The notes under the pieces are model-generated. The model had not been told where the DNA came from, made no database searches, and saw nothing but the letters and a program-made list of their open reading frames with translations. A program made the position numbers and the translations under genes. A stretch of DNA of 46,989 bases from an uncultured Anaerolineae bacterium (GTDB taxonomy: Bacteria; Chloroflexota; Anaerolineae; JACIWP01). The stretch covers positions 1 to 46,989 of the forward strand of contig CALIBQ010000008.1 in assembly GCA_938049385.1 (NCBI GenBank), in the 5' to 3' direction. Each line of letters starts with the position of its first letter. Position 1 is the stretch's first letter. Shown piece by piece: positions 379 to 33,709 of the stretch.

Positions 379-657
379 AAACTATATCCGAATGGCGATG
401 ATGGAAACGAGTAGGTGAGAAACGGCTCTGCAGAGAGCCCGGGCGAGGTGCGAGCTGGGTGGGCACGCCTCACCGAAAATCCTTCCGGAGCTGCCAGCCG
501 AACGGCACATACGTGCCTAGTAGACCTGGCCGGCCTCGTCAGCCGTTACCCTGGACGGGGATATGTTGGTATCCCACGGAGCGAGCGGTCTGCTAAGAGG
601 GGTGGTACCGCGGGAGTGTATTGTGCTCTCGTCCCCATGGGGGAAGAGAGCATTTTT
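379..657 (+). ncRNA. T-box riboswitch leader, isoleucine type
   Basis: The leader has a Stem I region with AGTA (413-416) and a CAGAGAG segment (431-437), and a probable specifier codon ATC (Ile) at 479-481. The hallmark T-box sequence GGTGGTACCGCGG is at 601-613. In the antiterminator, GCGGT (585-589) can pair with ACCGC (607-611), and the UGGU bulge (603-606) would bind an uncharged tRNA acceptor end. It finishes with an intrinsic terminator 20 nt before alaX. By family knowledge, uncharged tRNA-Ile would stabilise the antiterminator and switch on alaX-ileS. The specifier position is my reading of the fold and was not computed. Confidence 0.9.
624..657 (+). terminator. T-box-controlled intrinsic terminator
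   Basis: TGCTCTC (624-630) pairs with GAGAGCA (646-652), with an inner CCCC/GGGG stem, followed by five T residues (653-657). It is the off state of the T-box leader. Confidence 0.88.
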
Positions 658-1436: not shown

Positions 1437-4628
<3,192 letters not shown>

Positions 4629-14097: not shown

Positions 14098-14121
14098 ATG
14101 GTGTGCAGGTACATACGATGA
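14098..14121 (+). CDS. Possible 7-codon upstream ORF overlapping the leader peptide
   Basis: ATG GTG TGC AGG TAC ATA CGA TGA is preceded by a good TGAGGT ribosome site 6-7 nt away (14086-14091). Its TGA overlaps the ATG of the Leu/Val/Ile leader peptide (ATGA). It may deliver ribosomes to the leader by translational coupling. Support is only positional. Confidence 0.35.
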   Translation: MVCRYIR

Positions 14122-14225
14122 ACCTAGTGAATGTGCTCTCCCTGAACCTGGTAATTATTCTCGGCATTCTGGTTCTGGTCCTTATTGGCCAGAGCCTGGT
14201 TCCGGTTGGGGAGGGCGCGAGATAG
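14118..14225 (+). CDS. ilv-leu leader peptide (attenuation)
   Basis: This is a 35-residue peptide with 9 Leu, 7 Val and 4 Ile, including the run LVIILGILVLVLI (residues 11-23). Such composition is the hallmark of ribosome-mediated attenuation of branched-chain amino acid operons. The peptide ends 30 nt before an intrinsic terminator. A modest ribosome site (CAGG, 14106-14109) precedes the ATG, and an overlapping upstream mini-ORF may assist. Slow decoding of Leu, Val or Ile codons would hold the ribosome in segment 1 and favour antitermination. No product function is expected beyond its translation. Confidence 0.93.
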   Translation: MNLVNVLSLNLVIILGILVLVLIGQSLVPVGEGAR

Positions 14226-14285
14226 GCACACCCGAGAGCAAGCACCAGCCATAAGAAGCCTCCCAACCGGGAGGCTTTTATTTTT
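14138..14285 (+). promoter_or_regulatory. ilv-leu transcription attenuator with alternative hairpins
   Basis: Three mutually exclusive pairings are visible. Segment 1 (14138-14148, CTCCC and AACC) can pair with segment 2 (14204-14213, GGTT and GGGAG). Segment 2 (14202-14214) can instead pair with segment 3 (14259-14270) along 12 bp with one bulged G, forming an antiterminator. Segment 3 is also the 5' arm of the terminator. The leader stop codon (14223) is close enough that a ribosome finishing the peptide would cover segment 2. This is the E. coli ilv/trp-type logic. Confidence 0.88.
14256..14285 (+). terminator. Attenuator terminator of the ilv-leu leader
   Basis: A 9-bp stem AAGCCTCCC (14256-14264) / GGGAGGCTT (14269-14277) with an AACC loop is followed by TTATTTTT. 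Confidence 0.93.
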
Positions 14286-20449: not shown

Positions 20450-22129
<1,680 letters not shown>

Positions 22130-25075: not shown

Positions 25076-26458
25076 TTATTCGAAGAGCACGCGCGGCTGT
25101 TGGAGCAGGTGCTGTTTGTCGCGTGCGCTGAAGGGTATGGCCTCGAGGGTGAGCGGCTTGACGCCGGCCGGCAGTTCCCAGGGCATGGTCCATTCGGGCC
25201 GCGCATGTTCCACCAACTGCCAGGCCGCATCGCTGGGCACGACGGTCAGCAGGCGCGCCGCCTGGGCGGGGAAGCGGGCGATGAAGCGCAGTTCATCCGG
25301 CAGGAGCGGGAGCTGATTGTGGGCGTTGGCGAGCTGTACCAGCTCAAGGACAGTGCGGGCTTCGTCATCGCTCTCGAACTCGATGTCCAGCTCGCTGTAC
25401 ACGTGGCGCAGGCCGGCGACGCCGCCGAACTCGCCGGTGGTGATGATGCGGCCGCGCGGCCGCAGTTCGAATTCCGGCCGGCCCAATACGGTGAAGTCGA
25501 ACAGCTCGTAATTATGGCGATCCTTGAGCGCACCGTCCGCATGGATGCCGGACTCATGGGCGAAGGCATTGGCGCCGACGCCCGGCTGGTTGATGGGGAT
25601 TTTCTGGCCGGTGCTGTAGGCCACATAGCGGCAGAGGGTCCAGGCCCAGCGCAGGTCCACCGGCCGGCCCAGCGGGAGCTGGTCGCGCAGGTCGCGTGCG
25701 TATTCGATGGCCAGCAGTATGGAGACCAGGTCGGCGTTGCCGGCGCGCTCACCCATGCCGTTGACGGTGGTGTTGATCCAAGCATCCTGGCCGGCCTCGA
25801 TGACCGCCACTGCGCCGGCGAGCGAATTGGCCACCGCCAGGCCCAGGTCATTATGGCAGTGAAGCTCGATGGGCATCTGAGCCTTCTCGGCCAGGGCGCG
25901 CACCCGTGGGGCGATGGAGGCCGGCGTGTCATAGCCCAGGGTATCGCAGTAACGGAGCCGGCAGGCGCCGGCGGCCTTCACCGCCTGGGCAAATTCGATG
26001 AGAAAGCCCAGGTCAGAACGGGAGGAGTCTTCCGCGCTGACGATGATGGAGCGGGCACCATGCTCGATGGCGGCGCGCATGGCATCCGCCGTGATCTCGA
26101 TGACCTGCTCCGGCGTGTACTTGCCCTTGAACTTGTGCTGCATCATTTGCGGCGAGGTGCTCATGGACAGGTCGAAATCGCGCAGGCCGGTCTGCAGGGA
26201 AAAGATGGCGTCCTGGCGCTGTGCTCTGAGCCATCCCGAGATGACCATGTCTCCCATGACACCCATGGCATGAAGTTCCAGGTTGGCGGCGATGTAGTTG
26301 TGCTCATGCCGCACGAACGGGAAGCTCATCTCGGATTGATGGACGCCCATTTGCCCCAGATAGATGTTCACCATGGTCTTCTGGAGCTTGGAAAGGGTGA
26401 TGCGCGCGGTCTGTACGCCATCGCGGTTAGTGGTGTCCAGCAGATACACTGATGCCAT
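25076..26458 (-). CDS. Homocitrate/isopropylmalate synthase-family enzyme (possible Re-citrate synthase)
   Basis: This 460-aa DRE-TIM metallolyase condenses an acyl-CoA with a 2-oxoacid. It has LDTTNRDGVQTARITLSKL, the metal motif HCHNDLGLAVANS, the NGMGERAGNADLVSI motif and GANAFAHESGIHADG. The C-terminus is shorter than in LeuA and lacks a clear leucine-binding domain. The NRDGVQTAR/KLQKTMVNIYLGQMG pattern recalls proteins annotated as homocitrate synthase in strict anaerobes, some of which are Re-citrate synthases (Clostridium kluyveri, proposed in Dehalococcoides); that link is from memory. The ATG at 26458 has AGGAGG 7 nt upstream; the ATG at 26464 is too close to it. It has its own promoter and attenuator. 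Confidence 0.85.
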   Translation of the reverse strand: MASVYLLDTTNRDGVQTARITLSKLQKTMVNIYLGQMGVHQSEMSFPFVRHEHNYIAANLELHAMGVMGDMVISGWLRAQRQDAIFSLQTGLRDFDLSMSTSPQMMQHKFKGKYTPEQVIEITADAMRAAIEHGARSIIVSAEDSSRSDLGFLIEFAQAVKAAGACRLRYCDTLGYDTPASIAPRVRALAEKAQMPIELHCHNDLGLAVANSLAGAVAVIEAGQDAWINTTVNGMGERAGNADLVSILLAIEYARDLRDQLPLGRPVDLRWAWTLCRYVAYSTGQKIPINQPGVGANAFAHESGIHADGALKDRHNYELFDFTVLGRPEFELRPRGRIITTGEFGGVAGLRHVYSELDIEFESDDEARTVLELVQLANAHNQLPLLPDELRFIARFPAQAARLLTVVPSDAAWQLVEHARPEWTMPWELPAGVKPLTLEAIPFSARDKQHLLQQPRVLFE

Positions 26459-26556: not shown

Positions 26557-26589
26557 AAAAAGCCGGCTCACCAGGTTTGGCGAGCCGGC
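26557..26589 (-). terminator. Attenuator terminator upstream of the HMGL-like gene
   Basis: On the minus strand, GCCGGCTC (26589-26582) pairs with GAGCCGGC (26569-26562), with an inner CCA/TGG pair and TTTTT after it. It lies about 100 nt before the start codon, within the 5' leader. Confidence 0.88.
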
Positions 26590-26647
26590 CGAATCAGCCT
26601 TGAATCGTTGCCCACGCGCGCCTAACCTGCCGCCCATTTGGGAGGTT
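26572..26647 (-). promoter_or_regulatory. Candidate antiterminator region of the HMGL-like gene leader
   Basis: In the leader RNA, CAGGTTAGGCG (26629-26619) can pair with CGCCAAACCTG (26582-26572), 10 of 11 positions, which would break the terminator. Alternatively its AGGTT pairs with AACCT at 26647-26643, freeing the terminator. An outer CGTTGCC/GGCAACG pairing is also possible. The arrangement mirrors a translation-dependent attenuator. Confidence 0.65.
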
Positions 26648-26693
26648 GCGGTTGCGGTCGCTTGTACGGCAACGGTTGCAGAACAGCCAACAT
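26622..26693 (-). CDS. Candidate 23-aa leader peptide (Pro/Gln-rich)
   Basis: It reads MLAVLQPLPYKRPQPQPPKW and then AAG. The ATG has AGGG at 7 nt, and the TAG stop lies inside the antiterminator segment, as expected of a leader peptide. Unlike the ilv leader it is not rich in one product amino acid. It has six Pro codons, including a Pro-Pro pair, plus four Leu-type and two Lys codons at most. The sensed signal is not evident. Confidence 0.55.
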   Translation of the reverse strand: MLAVLQPLPYKRPQPQPPKWAAG

Positions 26694-26722
26694 ACGGATA
26701 CCCTATGCAGTTTATTAAAGAT

Positions 26723-26751
26723 ACTATACCATAGAACAAAGAAGCTGTCAA
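26723..26751 (-). promoter_or_regulatory. Promoter of the HMGL-like gene, at the IS remnant edge
   Basis: On the minus strand, TTGACA (26751-26746), a 17-nt spacer and TATAGT (26728-26723). Upstream it carries GGACT, 9 nt, CCCTC, 12 nt before the -35 box, as at 344 and 14045. The -35 box and upstream motif appear to belong to the transposon end. Confidence 0.85.
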
Positions 26752-27655
26752 GAGGCATTTTTCGAGGGTGTTGGAAAAGTCCGGGGGAATGGAGCATCTT
26801 AAAGATAATTCATCGAGAGGGTTGGGGGGAATATGCCATGGCTGGGCCACGCTTTGAGGAGACCGGGGAAACTCTATCTTCGGAGCATTCGTCTATGAAA
26901 GAATTGTGCCGCAGGATCACTTCCTGCGCCGTCTTCGGGAACTCACCTTGTGGGAGCGTTTCACCCGCATGCTGCTGGAATACTACCCGGGGGACGGGAG
27001 GCAGGGTCGTCCGCCCTACGACCCGGCCCTGATCCTTCGGATGCTCTTGATTGCGTACCTGTACAACCTTTCGGAGCGCCAGACCGAGCAGATGGTCAAC
27101 GAGAACATTCCCATGAAGTACTTTGTGGGGCTGGCTGTGGATGAGCCTGCTCCCGACCATTCCACGCTGACAGCATTCAAGGCTCGTCTCAAGGCCTGCG
27201 GCCAGGAGGAGGCATTTGAGCGGATGCTACAGGAGATGGTGAAGATTGCCCAGGAGAAGGAGGTCCAGTTTGGAGAGGTGCAGGTGGTGGACAGCGCGCA
27301 CATGGTTGCGGATGTGAACACGGCGAAGGACGAGGGACGTCAGAGGGATGGGAAGCCGCCGCGCGATCGGGATGCGCGCTAGGGTGTCAAGGGGGATCGG
27401 GTTGTGCGGGCGGAGGGAGGGGAGAAGAAGCAGGTGACGGAGTATTTCTATGGCTACAAGGCGCACATGAGCCTGAACACGGCTGCGGAGCTAATCACCA
27501 GTGTGGTGGTAACGGCGGGGAATGTGCCCGACGGGAGGGTGTGTGCGAGGTTGTTGGACAAGGACGTAGGGCAGGAGCTGCCGGTGAGGATTGTGAGTGG
27601 GGATCGGGCCTATAATGACAGCCACAATCGCTTTTTGCTCTGGTCTCGGGGATAG
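26746..27655 (+). mobile_element. Decayed IS1182-like insertion element
   Basis: The left edge is taken at TGTCAA (26746), followed by GAGGGTGTTGGAAAAGTCC, which resembles a terminal inverted repeat also seen as solo copies near 310-349 and 14016-14050. The right end cannot be found, so the element is truncated. I saw no GCCGGC hexamer within 26838-27655, whereas flanking genes have about one per 100 nt, which supports foreign origin. Confidence 0.7.
26838..27655 (+). pseudogene. IS1182-family transposase, disrupted
   Basis: The reading MAGPRFEETGET shifts frame near 26878-26886 and continues as GAFVYERIVPQDHFLRRLRE. RMLLIAYLYNLSERQTEQMV and VQVVDSAH (first catalytic Asp) follow. An in-frame TAG at 27380-27382 stands where family members have Trp (DARWGVKG). 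The same frame continues with EYFYGYKAHMSLN and a DRAYND motif (second Asp), then stops at 27655. The terminal part with the catalytic Glu is missing. With a frameshift, a nonsense codon and a truncation, it cannot make an active transposase. Confidence 0.88.
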
Positions 27656-28158: not shown

Positions 28159-28959
28159 TTGCACGCCATCGTATGCATCAAACAGGTCCCTGACACCACA
28201 GAGGTCAAGATTGACCCCGTCCGCGGCACGCTGATTCGCGAGGGCGTTCCCAGCATCCTCAACCCCTTCGACACCTACGCCATCGAGGAGGCGCTTCGCC
28301 TGAAAGAGCAGTTTGGCGGGAAGGTCACCGCCATCAGCATGGGCCCGCCGCAGGCCATCGAGGTACTCAAGGAAGCGGTGGCCATGGGATGTGACGATGC
28401 CATCTTGCTCTCCGACCGGGCGTTCGCCGGCTCCGACACTTGGGCCACCGCCTATACACTCTCCCAGGCCATCCGCCGGCTGGGCGAGTTCGACATCATC
28501 CTCTGCGGTCGGCAGGCCATTGACGGCGACACTGGCCAGGTCGGCCCAGGTATCGCCCGCCAACTGAAGATCAACCAGCTCACCTACGTCTGCAAGATTC
28601 AGCACATCGACTTCGAGAAAAAAGAAATCCGTGTGGAGCGCCTGCTGGAGGAAGGGCGCGAGGTGGTGGAAAGCCGACTGCCGGCACTCCTCACCGTGGT
28701 GAAAGACATCAACCAGCCGCGCTATCCCACCTTCAAGGGCATCCGCCGCGCCTCCCGCATGGAATATCCCATCTGGACTGCCAAGGACCTGGAAGGCGCT
28801 AACCCCGCCTTCTTCGGGCTGGACGGCTCCCCGACGCGGGTGGTACGCGTCTTCACACCGCCGCCCCGCAGTGGCCAGACCGAGATTATCCAGGGCGAGA
28901 CGGTGCAGGAACAGGCCACCAAGCTGGTGGAAAGGCTCCTGGCGGAAAAGATCATCTGA
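28159..28959 (+). CDS. etfB: Electron transfer flavoprotein, beta subunit
   Basis: This 266-aa EtfB homologue has CIKQVPDTTEVKIDP at the N-terminus and FDTYAIEEALRLKE after it. DIILCGRQAIDGDTGQVGPGIARQL is the nucleotide-binding stretch. It starts with TTG, supported by a perfect AAGGAGG site 5 nt upstream. It is the first gene of the redox operon. Partners should be the ferredoxin-fused EtfA and the acyl-CoA dehydrogenase next door. The beta subunit length and the ferredoxin domain on EtfA resemble bifurcating ETFs (CarDE, LctBC), but I cannot confirm an NADH site by eye. Confidence 0.94.
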   Translation: MHAIVCIKQVPDTTEVKIDPVRGTLIREGVPSILNPFDTYAIEEALRLKEQFGGKVTAISMGPPQAIEVLKEAVAMGCDDAILLSDRAFAGSDTWATAYTLSQAIRRLGEFDIILCGRQAIDGDTGQVGPGIARQLKINQLTYVCKIQHIDFEKKEIRVERLLEEGREVVESRLPALLTVVKDINQPRYPTFKGIRRASRMEYPIWTAKDLEGANPAFFGLDGSPTRVVRVFTPPPRSGQTEIIQGETVQEQATKLVERLLAEKII

Positions 28960-29012
28960 GGCCGGCGGCCTACCCTATGCTCCCAACCTGCGCATGAGAA
29001 GGAGGAACGATC

Positions 29013-30209
29013 GTGGCACTGCTTGAAATCAATCGTGAGGAATGCATCGGCTGTGAAGCATGTGTGGCCGCCTGTCCCTTCGGCGCCCTGCACATGGATG
29101 CGGAGCGCAAGGCTGTCGTGGATGATAAGTGCACGGCTTGCGGCGCATGTATTGATGTCTGCCCCGTCGGCGCGCTCAGCCTGCCGGAGGTGGAGGCACC
29201 GGCGGCCGGCCTGGATCAGTACAAAGGCGTCTGGGTATGGGTGGAACAACTGCAGGGTGAGGCCGGCAGTATCTCCTGGGAGATGATCGGCAAGGGACGC
29301 GAGCTGGCCGACCAGCGCCAGACCACCCTCACCGCCTGTGTGCTGGGTCACCATGTCGAGCACATCGCCCAGCAGGCCATCGCGTACGGCGCCGACCGCG
29401 TCATCCTGGTAGACGACCCCGTGCTGAAGCACTACCGCACGGAGCCGTACGCCGCGGTGCTGGTGGACCTCATCCGGCAGTACAAGCCGGAGATATTCAT
29501 TCTGGGGGCCTCGACGCGCGGCCGGGACCTGGCCGGCGCCGTCGCGACCGAGATTTTCACCGGCCTTACCGCCGACTGCACGGGACTGGACATTGACCCC
29601 GAGACCGGCCTCTTGCGCCAGACCCGCCCGGCCTTCGGCGGCAATATCATGGCCACCATCATCTGCCCCAACCATCGGCCGCAGATGGCCACCGTGCGCC
29701 ACCGCGTCTTCGAGATGCCGACGCCCGACGAGACCCGCAGGGGCGAGATCATCCGGGTCAATCCGCATTTGGATGAGGAGGCCATCGCCTCCAAAGTGGT
29801 GGACTTCATCCGGGAGGAGGGACAAGTGAACCTGGCCGACGCCCGCATCATTGTGTCGGGCGGGCGCGGCGTCGGTGGGCCGGAAGGGTTCGAACCCATC
29901 CGCCGGCTGGCGGAGGTGCTGGGTGGGGCGGTGGGCGCCTCGCGCGCCGCGGTGGATGCCGGCTGGATCCCCTACGCCCATCAGGTGGGCCAGACCGGCC
30001 GCACGGTGCGACCGGACCTATACATCGCCTGCGGCATCTCCGGCGCCATCCAGCACCTGGCCGGCATGCAGACCTCCCGCGTCATCGTCGCCATCAACAA
30101 GGACCCTGAGGCGCCCATCTTTAAGATCGCCAACTACGGCATCGTGGGAGACCTGTTCCAGGTACTGCCAGCATTGACGGAGGAATTCCGCAAGCGTCTG
30201 CGGAAATAA
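29013..30209 (+). CDS. etfA: Electron transfer flavoprotein, alpha subunit, with N-terminal 2[4Fe-4S] ferredoxin domain
   Basis: This 398-aa protein is about 70 aa longer than plain EtfA. The added N-terminus has two canonical CX2CX2CX3CP motifs (C11, C14, C17, C21 and C40, C43, C46, C50). The EtfA part follows, with the C-terminal FAD domain [23 protein letters not shown] and QVGQTGRTV. This fusion is known in CarE of caffeyl-CoA reductase and LctC of lactate dehydrogenase/ETF of Acetobacterium (established knowledge). It suggests direct electron exchange with ferredoxin. The GTG start has GAAGGAGGAAC 8 nt upstream. Confidence 0.95.
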
Positions 30210-30230
30210 TCATGCCTATCGGAGGAAACG

Positions 30231-31448
30231 ATGGAGTTTCAACTGAGTGATGAGCACCGCCTGCTCGAGAAGACCGTGCGCGAGTTCGCCGCCCGGGAGA
30301 TCGCGCCCTACATCAAGGAACAGGACCGCACCCATTCCTTTGACCCGGGCATTTTCCCCAAGATGGCGGAGCAGGGCCTGCTCGGCATCTGCATCCCGGA
30401 GCGCTACGGCGGCGCCGGCATGGACTACATCTCCCTCGGCCTGGCCTGCGAGGAGCTGGAATACGTGGACACCTCCGTGCGCGTCATCATGAGCGTCCAT
30501 GTGGGGTTGTACTCCTGCACCCTTTTGCAGTGGGCCACCGAGGAGCAGAAGCAGAAATACCTGGTGCCGGCCGCCCAAGGGGATGTCATCGGTGCCTTTG
30601 GTCTGACGGAACCCAATGCCGGCAGTGACGTGGTGAACCTGCAGAGCACTGCCCGCCGCGAGGGCGACCATTACATCCTCAACGGGGAGAAGACCTGGAT
30701 CTCTCTGGCGGATGTAGCCGACCATTTCCTGGTCTTCGCCTGGACCGACACGGAGAAAAAACGCCGGCGAGACCATACCGGCATCTCGGCCTTCATCGTC
30801 GAGCGCGGCTGGCCGGGCCTGACGACCGAGACCATTCACGGCAAGCTGGGTGTGCGCGCCGGCAACACCGGCTCCATCTCCATGACCGATGTGCCGGTGC
30901 CGGCCGAGAACCTGCTGGGCCAAGAGGGCGAGGGCTTCAAGATCGCCATGAGCGCCCTGGACCAGGGCCGCTACACGGTCGCCGCCGGCGCCACCGGCCT
31001 TATCCGCGCCTGCCTGGATGCCTCGGTGCGCTACGCTAATGAGCGCCAGACCTTCGGTGTGCCCATCGGCCGGCATCAGCTCATCCAGCAGATGATCGCC
31101 TTCATGGCCCAGCGCTACGAGATCGCCCGCCTGCTCTACCTGCGCGCCGGCTGGCTGAAAAACCAGGGCATCCGCAACACCCGCGAGACCAGCCTGGCCA
31201 AATGGTATGCCTGCGACGCGGCCTTTGATTCCGCCTCCGATGCGGTGCAGATTCACGGCGCCTACGGCTACTGTGATGAGTACGACGTGGAGCGCTTTTT
31301 CCGCAACGCCAAGGGCGCCGTCATCTACGAGGGGAGCCGCGAGATTCATCAGCTCCTGCAGGCGGAGTACGCGCTGGGCTATCGGCAGGATAAGCCGCTC
31401 CGCTGTGAACTGCCGGCCTATGACCCCGAGACGTGGACGGAAAGCTGA
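30231..31448 (+). CDS. Acyl-CoA dehydrogenase
   Basis: This 405-aa FAD enzyme passes electrons to or from ETF. Motifs are [54 protein letters not shown] and [22 protein letters not shown]. The probable catalytic base is E367 in [19 protein letters not shown], the short-chain acyl-CoA dehydrogenase position. Chain length cannot be read from sequence; isovaleryl-, isobutyryl- or butyryl-CoA are sensible candidates. It lies 21 nt after etfA and 18 nt before the oxidoreductase alpha gene, so it is part of the same transcript. Confidence 0.93.
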
Positions 31449-31466
31449 GCCGACCGGAACCGCCCT

Positions 31467-32891
31467 ATGCCCAAACCGCATCGCGTGACCATTGTCGAAT
31501 CGCTCTGCAAGGGGCAGGCCTGCGCGCTGTGCGCCCAGGTCTGCCCGGCCAGCGTCTTCCGGCCGGCCGACCATCCCACACCTCAGGGCATCATGCCCAT
31601 GCAGGCCGCCTACCCTGAAAAATGCACGGCCTGTCATCAGTGCGACCAGCTCTGTCCGGATCTGGCCATTGATGTCATCGCGGAGGGAGCGGAGCCTGCC
31701 CCTCTGCCGGCGCGCGGCGGGCCATTCCCCCGGCCCAACCCCATGGGAGGATGGGTCGAACGGCCGGCCTTACTGCCGGCCGGCTCCTACTTCATGTCGG
31801 GCAATGAGGCCTGCGCCGAAGGGGCGCTGGCCGCCGGCTGTCGCTTCTATGCCGGCTACCCCATCACCCCTTCCAGCGAAATCATGGTGCATATGGCGCA
31901 CCGCCTACCGGCGCTGGGCGGCACTTTCACCCAGATGGAGGATGAGCTGGGGAGCATCGCCGCCGTCATCGGCGCCTCATGGGGCGGCGTCAAAGCCATG
32001 ACCGCCACCTCCGGGCCAGGCATCAGCCTGATGCTGGAGAACATCGGTTACGCCATCATGACCGAGACGCCCTGTGTCATCGTGGATGTCCAGCGCGCCG
32101 GCCCCAGCACCGGCCAGGCCAGCCGGCCGGCCCAGGGGGACATCATGCAGGCGCGCTGGGGCGCCCACGGCGGCGTGGACCTCATCGCCCTGGCCCCCTG
32201 GTCCGTGCAGGAGATGTACGAGCTGGCCATCCGCGCCTTCAACTTGTCCGAACGCTTTCGCGTGCCGGTGTTCCTGCTGGCCGATGAAATTGTGTCGCAC
32301 CTGTACGAGACCATCACGATCCCGCCGGCGGTGCGTACTTTCGAGCGCGTGCGCCTGCCCCAGGATATGCCCTTCGATACCCCTGAGATAGACGGCGTGC
32401 CGCCCATGCCGGCCTTCGGCGAGGGTGCCTATCTGCTGGTCACTGGCTCCACCCACGACGGCCGCGGCTACCGCCGCACCACCGACGCCGCGGTGCAGGA
32501 CAAGCTCGTGCGCCGGCTCTCTGCCAAAATCCGACACCACCAGGACGAGATTGACGACTGGGAAGCGTACATGCTGGAGGATGCCGAACGGGTGCTGGTG
32601 GCGTGCGGCTCCACGGCACGCAGTGCCCTTTGGGCCGTCCAAGCCGCCCGCCGGCAGGGACAGCCCATTGGCCTCCTGCGGCTGAGGAGCCTGTGGCCCT
32701 TCCCGGACACCGTTGTCGCCGCGCACTGCCGCGGCCGGGGAGAAATTATCGTGCCAGAGATGAACTTGGGTCAGCTTGCCGGCGAGGTACGGCGTGCCGC
32801 CGGCGCCCCCGTCACTTCCCTCACCCAGGTGGACGGGGAACCCATTGACCCGCGCCGCATCCTGGCCTATCTCCAGGAAGGGAGGTGGTAA
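31467..32891 (+). CDS. 2-oxoacid:ferredoxin oxidoreductase alpha subunit with N-terminal ferredoxin domain (KorD-KorA-type fusion)
   Basis: In this 474-aa protein, residues 1-70 form a ferredoxin-like (delta) domain with C14-X4-C19-X2-C22-X3-C26 and C53-X2-C56-X2-C59-X3-C63. The alpha subunit proper starts near residue 108 with SGNEACAEGALAAGCRFYAGYPITPSSEIMV, then MEDELGSIAAVIGASWGG and SGPGISLMLENIGYA. The first cluster motif is wider than canonical (X4 in place of X2). Delta and alpha chains are usually separate genes. With the downstream subunits it should oxidise a 2-oxoacid plus CoA to acyl-CoA, CO2 and reduced ferredoxin, or run in reverse. Substrate (2-oxoglutarate or branched) is undetermined. 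Confidence 0.92.
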   Translation: MPKPHRVTIVESLCKGQACALCAQVCPASVFRPADHPTPQGIMPMQAAYPEKCTACHQCDQLCPDLAIDVIAEGAEPAPLPARGGPFPRPNPMGGWVERPALLPAGSYFMSGNEACAEGALAAGCRFYAGYPITPSSEIMVHMAHRLPALGGTFTQMEDELGSIAAVIGASWGGVKAMTATSGPGISLMLENIGYAIMTETPCVIVDVQRAGPSTGQASRPAQGDIMQARWGAHGGVDLIALAPWSVQEMYELAIRAFNLSERFRVPVFLLADEIVSHLYETITIPPAVRTFERVRLPQDMPFDTPEIDGVPPMPAFGEGAYLLVTGSTHDGRGYRRTTDAAVQDKLVRRLSAKIRHHQDEIDDWEAYMLEDAERVLVACGSTARSALWAVQAARRQGQPIGLLRLRSLWPFPDTVVAAHCRGRGEIIVPEMNLGQLAGEVRRAAGAPVTSLTQVDGEPIDPRRILAYLQEGRW

Positions 32892-32893
32892 CC

Positions 32894-33709
32894 ATGGCGC
32901 CGGCTTCCGCCTCTCCCCTGGCCTCTGACCTGCGCGCGGCATATCTGCGGCAGTCCACCGCTTTCTGCCCAGGATGCGGCCACGGCATCTTCATGAACGC
33001 CTTCTTACGGGCGGCGGCCGCCCTGCCGCTGGATTTCGACCGCACGGTCTTCGTCTCCGGCATTGGCTGCGGCGCCTGGGTGCCCTCGCCCCATTTCCTA
33101 GCGGATACTTTGCACGTCACCCATGGTCGGGCGGTGGCCTTCGCCGCCGGCGTCCAGCGGGCACGCCCTGACCTGAACGTGGTAGTCATCAGCGGGGACG
33201 GCGACCTGGCCAATATCGGCGGCAATCATCTCATCCATGCGGCGCGCCGGCAGATTCCCATCAAGGTCTTCTGCCTGAACAATTGGCTCTTCGGCATGAC
33301 AGGCGGGCAGGTCTCGGCCACCACGCCGCGCACCGCCCGCACCGCTACCACGCCGGCCGGCAATCCCGACCCGCCCTTCGACCTGGTGCGGCTGGTGCTG
33401 GGCGCCGGCGCCCCCTTCGCCGCCCGCTGGCCGGTCTCCCAGCCGCGCCAGCTCGCGCGCGGCATCCTGCACGCCCTGCAGGAGCCGGGCTTCGCTTTCG
33501 TGGAGGTGCTCTCCATCTGCCCGACCCATTTCGGCCGCGCCAACGAGGCGCTTTTGCCGGGGGAAGCCGCGCAAAGCATCCCATGGCGCATGTTGGAATG
33601 GCTCCGGCGGAACTGCGTGGGAAGGGAGAGGGCCGCCGGCCTGCCGCCTGAGGAGCGCGCCGGCAAGATCCTCACCGGGGAATGGCGCGGCGAGGAGGGA
33701 TGGCCATGA
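32894..33709 (+). CDS. 2-oxoacid:ferredoxin oxidoreductase beta (ThDP) subunit
   Basis: This 271-aa protein has CPGCGHGIFMNAFLRA near the N-terminus and the ThDP/Mg motif VVISGDGDLANIGGNHLIHAARR through CLNNWLFGMTGGQ. Further Cys residues (SGIGCGAW and SICPTHFGRAN) fit cluster ligands of KorB-type subunits. The ATG at 32894 is used because GGGAGGTGG lies 8 nt upstream; a GTG at 32885 would overlap the alpha gene. Its stop overlaps the gamma start (ATGA). Confidence 0.93.
   Translation: MAPASASPLASDLRAAYLRQSTAFCPGCGHGIFMNAFLRAAAALPLDFDRTVFVSGIGCGAWVPSPHFLADTLHVTHGRAVAFAAGVQRARPDLNVVVISGDGDLANIGGNHLIHAARRQIPIKVFCLNNWLFGMTGGQVSATTPRTARTATTPAGNPDPPFDLVRLVLGAGAPFAARWPVSQPRQLARGILHALQEPGFAFVEVLSICPTHFGRANEALLPGEAAQSIPWRMLEWLRRNCVGRERAAGLPPEERAGKILTGEWRGEEGWP

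Follow-up and report, generated by a model that had tools for sequence, protein, structure and literature searches.

Leader-peptide attenuation is best known from dedicated amino-acid operons of well-studied bacteria. The attenuators of the trp, his, ilv, leu, thr and phe operons share a promoter, a short open reading frame (ORF) with codons for the pathway product, alternative protector, antiterminator and terminator pairings, and a stop codon near strand 2, and a proline-rich leader ORF within a transcription attenuator that senses charged tRNA(Pro) has been described for mgtP and mgtL of Salmonella (PMC3641672). A leader that has the build of the former and a proline-rich ORF like the latter was analysed here in a window of 46,989 nucleotides (the whole stretch of DNA studied) from an uncultured Anaerolineae bacterium, where it precedes a gene for an HMGL-like protein. 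Our fold predictions make it very likely that this leader is a ribosome-mediated transcription attenuator, and we consider it probable that it adjusts a Re-citrate synthase to the availability of aminoacyl-tRNAs of the glutamate family, namely Gln and Pro together with Arg. The computations show the elements, how well they are conserved, that their pairings exclude one another, and the phyletic pattern of the gene; the enzyme activity, the switch in vivo and the trigger amino acid are inferred.

Leader architecture and predicted folds

The leader is encoded on the minus strand, and two further species of the same genus (G001 and G002) each carry a single copy of it. It begins with an extended sigma-70-type promoter (26751-26723; TTGACA-17-TATAGT with TG before the −10 hexamer, 11 of 12 consensus positions), of which both hexamers are identical in G001, and the −10 hexamer is identical in G002, where the contig stops short of the −35 region. 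A Shine-Dalgarno-like AGGG (26701..26704; AGGG in G001, AAGGA in G002) lies 7 nt 5' of the ATG of a 23-codon leader peptide ORF (26622..26693, ATG at 26693, stop codon UAG at 26624-26622) that encodes the same peptide, MLAVLQPLPYKRPQPQPPKWAAG, in all three species. An intrinsic terminator hairpin of 13 bp (9 G-C), with a loop of 4 and a subsequent T run, follows at 26561..26590, between the leader promoter and the HMGL-like gene, as an attenuator demands. The gene itself (25076..26458 including the stop, ATG at 26458, SD AGGAGG, 460 aa, PF00682) starts about 100 nt past this terminator. The promoter, the peptide ORF with its ribosome site and the strong terminator that the earlier note had placed before the HMGL-like gene were thus all found, on the minus strand at 26751-26556. 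About 150 nt upstream of the leader promoter, on the plus strand, the window carries a split transposase (26906-27655) in two short frames, DUF772 and then DDE_Tnp_1, which is probably a decayed insertion sequence; G001 has a different sequence at this position. Further along the same strand, at 28159-33709, lies a cluster of ETF, acyl-CoA dehydrogenase and 2-oxoacid:ferredoxin oxidoreductase-type genes that adjoins amino-acid genes.

Three alternative pairings are predicted for the leader RNA. In a protector hairpin 1:2 (26607..26674, minus strand), codons about 7-18 pair with GGUUAGGCGCGCGUGGGCAACG, which would sequester the antiterminator strand in untranslated RNA. The 5' strand of the antiterminator, CAGGUUAGGCG (26619..26629, minus strand), covers the last peptide codons and the UAG stop, and its predicted partner CGCCAAACCUG (26572..26582, minus strand) competes with the third structure, the terminator. 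The two strands are Watson-Crick complementary at 10 of 11 positions, a count the earlier note had given correctly, but the partner is not the terminator 5' arm alone, as had been stated, since it also takes in the loop and the beginning of the 3' arm.

To follow the effect of ribosome position, the RNA was masked up to the leading edge of the ribosome, which was set about 13 nt beyond the point where the A-site codon starts, and the remainder was folded. With the RNA ending at the terminator loop and the A site at codons 4-18, no protector formed and the antiterminator was preferred (pairing 0.77), and with the A site at codon 19, which corresponds to a Pro-Pro-Lys stall, the antiterminator was still dominant (0.77). 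The antiterminator energy was −27.2 kcal/mol with the A site at codons 15-18, −20.5 at codon 19, −13.6 at codon 22 and −7.5 at the stop codon. In ribosome-free RNA, the protector (0.72) outweighed the antiterminator (0.22), and the complete RNA adopted the terminator (0.98). Fold simulation and shuffles together predict that the availability of the antiterminator, which excludes the terminator, depends on the position of the ribosome: because the antiterminator strand overlaps the stop codon of the peptide, it is free when the ribosome stalls at codons 4-18 and covered when the ribosome is at the stop, and the R-P-Q-P-Q-P-P run ends at codon 18, where a stall still spares the antiterminator in the simulation. 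As modelled, these folds correspond to a classical three-state attenuator. At equilibrium, the complete terminator beats the antiterminator for all ribosome positions, and antitermination must therefore be kinetic; kinetic switching is also thought to operate in known attenuators. As the antiterminator was already favoured in loop-cut RNA with a ribosome on the first codons, the assumption that no translation means termination is weakly supported.

A 10-of-11 helix centred within 8 nt of the stop codon occurred in 0.3% of 20,000 dinucleotide shuffles, and the segment exposed by a stalled ribosome folded at −27.0 kcal/mol, compared with −18.1 ± 2.7 in shuffles (z −3.4). Against shuffles, the folding z was −3.3 for the whole 162-nt leader and −2.65 for the protector hairpin region. 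In G002, the leader lies directly upstream of the HMGL-like gene, as in the window, and in G001 the contig that carries it is a separate one, which breaks off shortly after this gene begins. From the ATG to the end of the terminator hairpin, the three species show 3-4 differences in 133 nt, whereas the window differs from either relative at 19% of the four-fold sites of the HMGL-like gene, and from the two relatives at 28-31% of positions in the 5' UTR and at 15-17% in the spacer after the terminator. The ORF, antiterminator strand 2 and the terminator are nearly unchanged in both relatives, and the terminator differs by one C-to-T change that turns a G-C into a G-U pair. Within the ORF, codons 4-23 and the stop are free of any nucleotide change, and the only two changes are synonymous, with SD, start and frame kept. 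The attenuator with a leader peptide, as proposed in the earlier note, thus gains support from the three-state folds, the shuffle statistics and the conservation in three species. The comparison of relatives had also been suggested as a means of telling a peptide sensor from a riboswitch, and it returned the identical peptide and the synonymous changes that a sensor would leave; however, two synonymous changes alone are weak evidence for coding, and the low divergence fits RNA constraint equally well, as three such close species do not separate constraint on the RNA from constraint on the peptide. The leader is known from three close species only, whose near-identical sequences cannot show covariation.

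By these sequence comparisons, the leader looks like a lineage-specific addition. When its DNA was searched in 60 relatives, it was not detected beyond the genus, and short matches in G025 and G016, both inside ordinary coding genes, were rejected as chance. A covariance model of the leader, run with stricter filters than the DNA search against 396 genomes of the class, found only the three species above chance, and a 65-nt match in G244 (E = 0.099) was taken as chance. Finally, the regions upstream of 31 homologues of the HMGL-like gene (29 Chloroflexota genomes, a Dehalococcoidia MAG and Nonomuraea) were scanned for terminators and P/Q-rich ORFs, and no attenuator was seen close to any of them; in two cases a terminator was present about 240 nt upstream, which resembles the end of the preceding gene.

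Identity of the regulated gene

Re-citrate synthase belongs to the HMGL family; it is known from Dehalococcoides and has been predicted for other Chloroflexota (PMC3971608, PMC12016533, PMC4720418), and its genes often carry a wrong annotation, as homocitrate or isopropylmalate synthase (PMC3971608, PMC12016533). On the basis of sequence and gene content, the HMGL-like gene very probably encodes this enzyme. With the NCBIfam models for LeuA, CimA and homocitrate synthase, the protein scored far under every cut-off, and the host genome has a separate, better-scoring gene for each, namely LeuA (20450-22129), CimA (708.6 bits, cut-off 450) and the homocitrate synthase LysS (441.8, cut-off 413.55); isopropylmalate, citramalate and homocitrate synthase were therefore rejected as functions of the HMGL-like gene. 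Si-citrate synthase was not found in the host genome or its two sister species. More widely, at a threshold of 1e-10, PF00285 was detected in none of 36 Chloroflexota genomes with a homologue of the HMGL-like gene and in 44 of 56 relatives without one, the genomes with and without the homologue differing in class. Re-citrate synthase usually replaces Si-citrate synthase, some clostridia with both being an exception. It is this anticorrelation with PF00285, together with the separate LeuA, CimA and LysS genes, that argues for the Re-citrate synthase assignment.

Homologues in other Chloroflexota match the HMGL-like protein at 50-61%, and the single strong homologue in complete genomes that resemble Dehalococcoides matches it at 51-52%. 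The Re-citrate synthase of Dehalococcoides CBDB1 is biochemically proven. The isocitrate dehydrogenase candidate of the host scored under the NCBIfam cut-offs. As a separate observation, a gene of the isocitrate/homoisocitrate-dehydrogenase type and a homocitrate synthase gene are only some 2 kb apart (L004 = G000:C3:63154-64056, and G000:C3:60182-61144), which suggests that lysine is made via 2-aminoadipate in this genus.

Leader codons, proposed signal and rival readings

Of the 23 codons of the peptide MLAVLQPLPYKRPQPQPPKWAAG, six specify Pro, three Gln and one Arg, and none specifies Glu. Codons 12-18 (26640..26660, minus strand; CGA CCG CAA CCG CAA CCT CCC), which we propose as control codons, form an unbroken R-P-Q-P-Q-P-P run. 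The earlier note had remarked that no single product amino acid forms runs in the peptide, and the residues are indeed mixed, but the run is an unbroken glutamate-family run if the gene is a Re-citrate synthase. Citrate is converted to 2-oxoglutarate and further to glutamate, from which Gln, Pro and Arg are made. If the enzyme has been identified correctly, codons 12-18 therefore all specify products of the pathway that it feeds, and thus the identity of the gene suggests the signal of the leader. Conversely, the Gln/Pro/Arg codon set would be independent support for a Re-citrate synthase, where standard models give merely a homocitrate- or isopropylmalate-synthase-like protein. In a study of Heliomicrobium, strains deleted for Re-citrate synthase were cultivated on minimal medium that contained glutamine, which the authors regarded as the source for glutamate, Pro and Arg (PMC12016533). 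A six-codon P/Q run has a probability of 5e-6 in random draws and is unique among the 276 short ORFs of the window, but seven-codon runs of the wider glutamate family are commoner (3 of 276), and as the amino-acid group was picked after the peptide had been seen, the run statistics overstate the significance. Gln is encoded each time by the rare CAA (24 CAA vs 192 CAG in 14 CDSs of the window), and the one Arg by CGA, which is rare as well (10 of the 392 Arg codons of these CDSs); since these codons lie in the paired region, base-pairing may have set the choice.

A GlnRS over the cut-off was not found in the three genomes of the genus, and GatB is present in two of them, so that Gln-tRNA is probably formed via Glu-tRNA(Gln). 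With no GlnRS found, the CAA codons should report glutamate in addition to amide nitrogen, and it may well be that this makes a Glu codon needless. Taken together, the supply of glutamate-family amino acids is the probable signal of the leader. With ample charged tRNA, the ribosome would reach the UAG and cover the antiterminator strand, the terminator would form and the gene would be off. When Gln-, Pro- or Arg-tRNA is scarce, the ribosome would stall on codons 12-18, the protector hairpin would not form, and the free CAGGUUAGGCG could pair with the nascent terminator arm and loop, so that the polymerase would continue into the gene; its expression would provide more citrate and, in turn, more 2-oxoglutarate and glutamate. 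A more tentative extension, possible but not our expectation, is that the alternating Gln/Pro leader acts as a single sensor of the whole glutamate family that jointly reads glutamate and amide nitrogen, as a carbon/nitrogen switch on citrate synthase that sets how much carbon enters the oxidative branch leading to 2-oxoglutarate.

In a his leader test system, Pro-Pro and rare Arg codons slowed ribosomes (PMC4046918), and the main alternative is therefore that the same attenuator is triggered by slow decoding, namely by Pro-Pro bond formation with its EF-P dependence and by the rare CGA-CCG, and reads the speed of translation in general instead of particular amino acids. The peptide contains both CGA-CCG and CCT-CCC, and the simulated Pro-Pro-Lys stall keeps the antiterminator dominant; nevertheless, we regard this reading as unlikely, because it leaves unexplained why two Gln codons, both rare CAA, alternate with Pro and why the codon set matches the pathway that the gene serves. 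The earlier note, which left the signal open, had listed translation in general and proline-type stalling among the candidate signals. Next in likelihood, and already improbable, is a sensor of proline only that would report osmotic or proline status in the manner of mgtP or mgtL. Pro accounts for 6 of the 23 codons, and mgtP, which has three Pro codons in a row, responds when charged tRNA(Pro) is low (PMC3641672), but the control run also includes Gln codons, which are rare ones, and the gene, if it is a Re-citrate synthase, feeds all glutamate-family amino acids. We give still less weight to a programmed arrest in which the RPQPQPPKW nascent chain would stall in the exit tunnel on a small molecule such as citrate or 2-oxoglutarate. 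The Pro-rich C-terminal stretch and the unchanged peptide sequence in the three species would suit an arrest peptide, yet the RNA pairing constrains the same bases, so that identity among relatives of one genus is no proof of constraint on the peptide, and a stall at PKW or later would start to cover the antiterminator strand. Least probable of all is the ligand-binding riboswitch with an incidental ORF that the earlier note had considered. The leader does have a strong structure, a highly conserved sequence and a terminator before a metabolic gene, but the Rfam search proposed there, run on the leader at gathering and permissive thresholds, gave no family at gathering score and just sRNA/miRNA matches far under the cut-off, the ORF keeps its SD, start and frame with solely synonymous changes, the antiterminator strand covers the stop codon as in leader-peptide attenuators, the predicted switch depends on the ORF, and a branched-chain leader of the same build exists in the same window.

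Comparison with described attenuators

In our preferred reading, the control of a Re-citrate synthase by glutamate-family tRNA charging, the leader appears to govern the step by which carbon enters the route to 2-oxoglutarate, in a genus of Anaerolineae in which Si-citrate synthase was not found, and, if true, nitrogen or amino-acid status would be coupled to citrate synthesis without a transcription factor. The open-access literature, most subscription journals being outside the scope of the search, yielded nothing relevant on Gln codons in leader peptides or on attenuation of a citrate synthase gene. The mechanism is thus of a known kind, and it is the leader with a Gln/Pro run on a citrate synthase that we did not find in the literature searched.

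The window contains further leaders. Downstream of a T-box leader (389-639, plus strand; 97 bits) come a 239-aa protein that has domains of the alanyl-tRNA-synthetase type (677-1396) and then a class I tRNA synthetase of 1063 aa (1437-4628). At 14118-14285 on the plus strand, the leader peptide MNLVNVLSLNLVIILGILVLVLIGQSLVPVGEGAR and a terminator precede the ilv-leu operon and form a textbook branched-chain attenuator. This ilv-leu leader, with its ORF starting at 14118 and 12 kb away in the same genome, shares the three-state architecture of the leader described here, and its simulated folds follow the same pattern, as the antiterminator stays intact until the ribosome is at about codon 25 of 35 and is gone by codon 28; it differs in its Leu/Val/Ile-rich control codons, and it belongs to another operon on the other strand. 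The mgtP and mgtL leaders are followed by Mg2+ transport and virulence genes, whereas in our leader Gln alternates with Pro and a biosynthetic gene follows. Finally, the trp, his, ilv, leu, thr and phe attenuators serve dedicated amino-acid operons, whereas here a mixed Gln/Pro/Arg run precedes a gene that would belong to central carbon metabolism, in a single genus of Anaerolineae.
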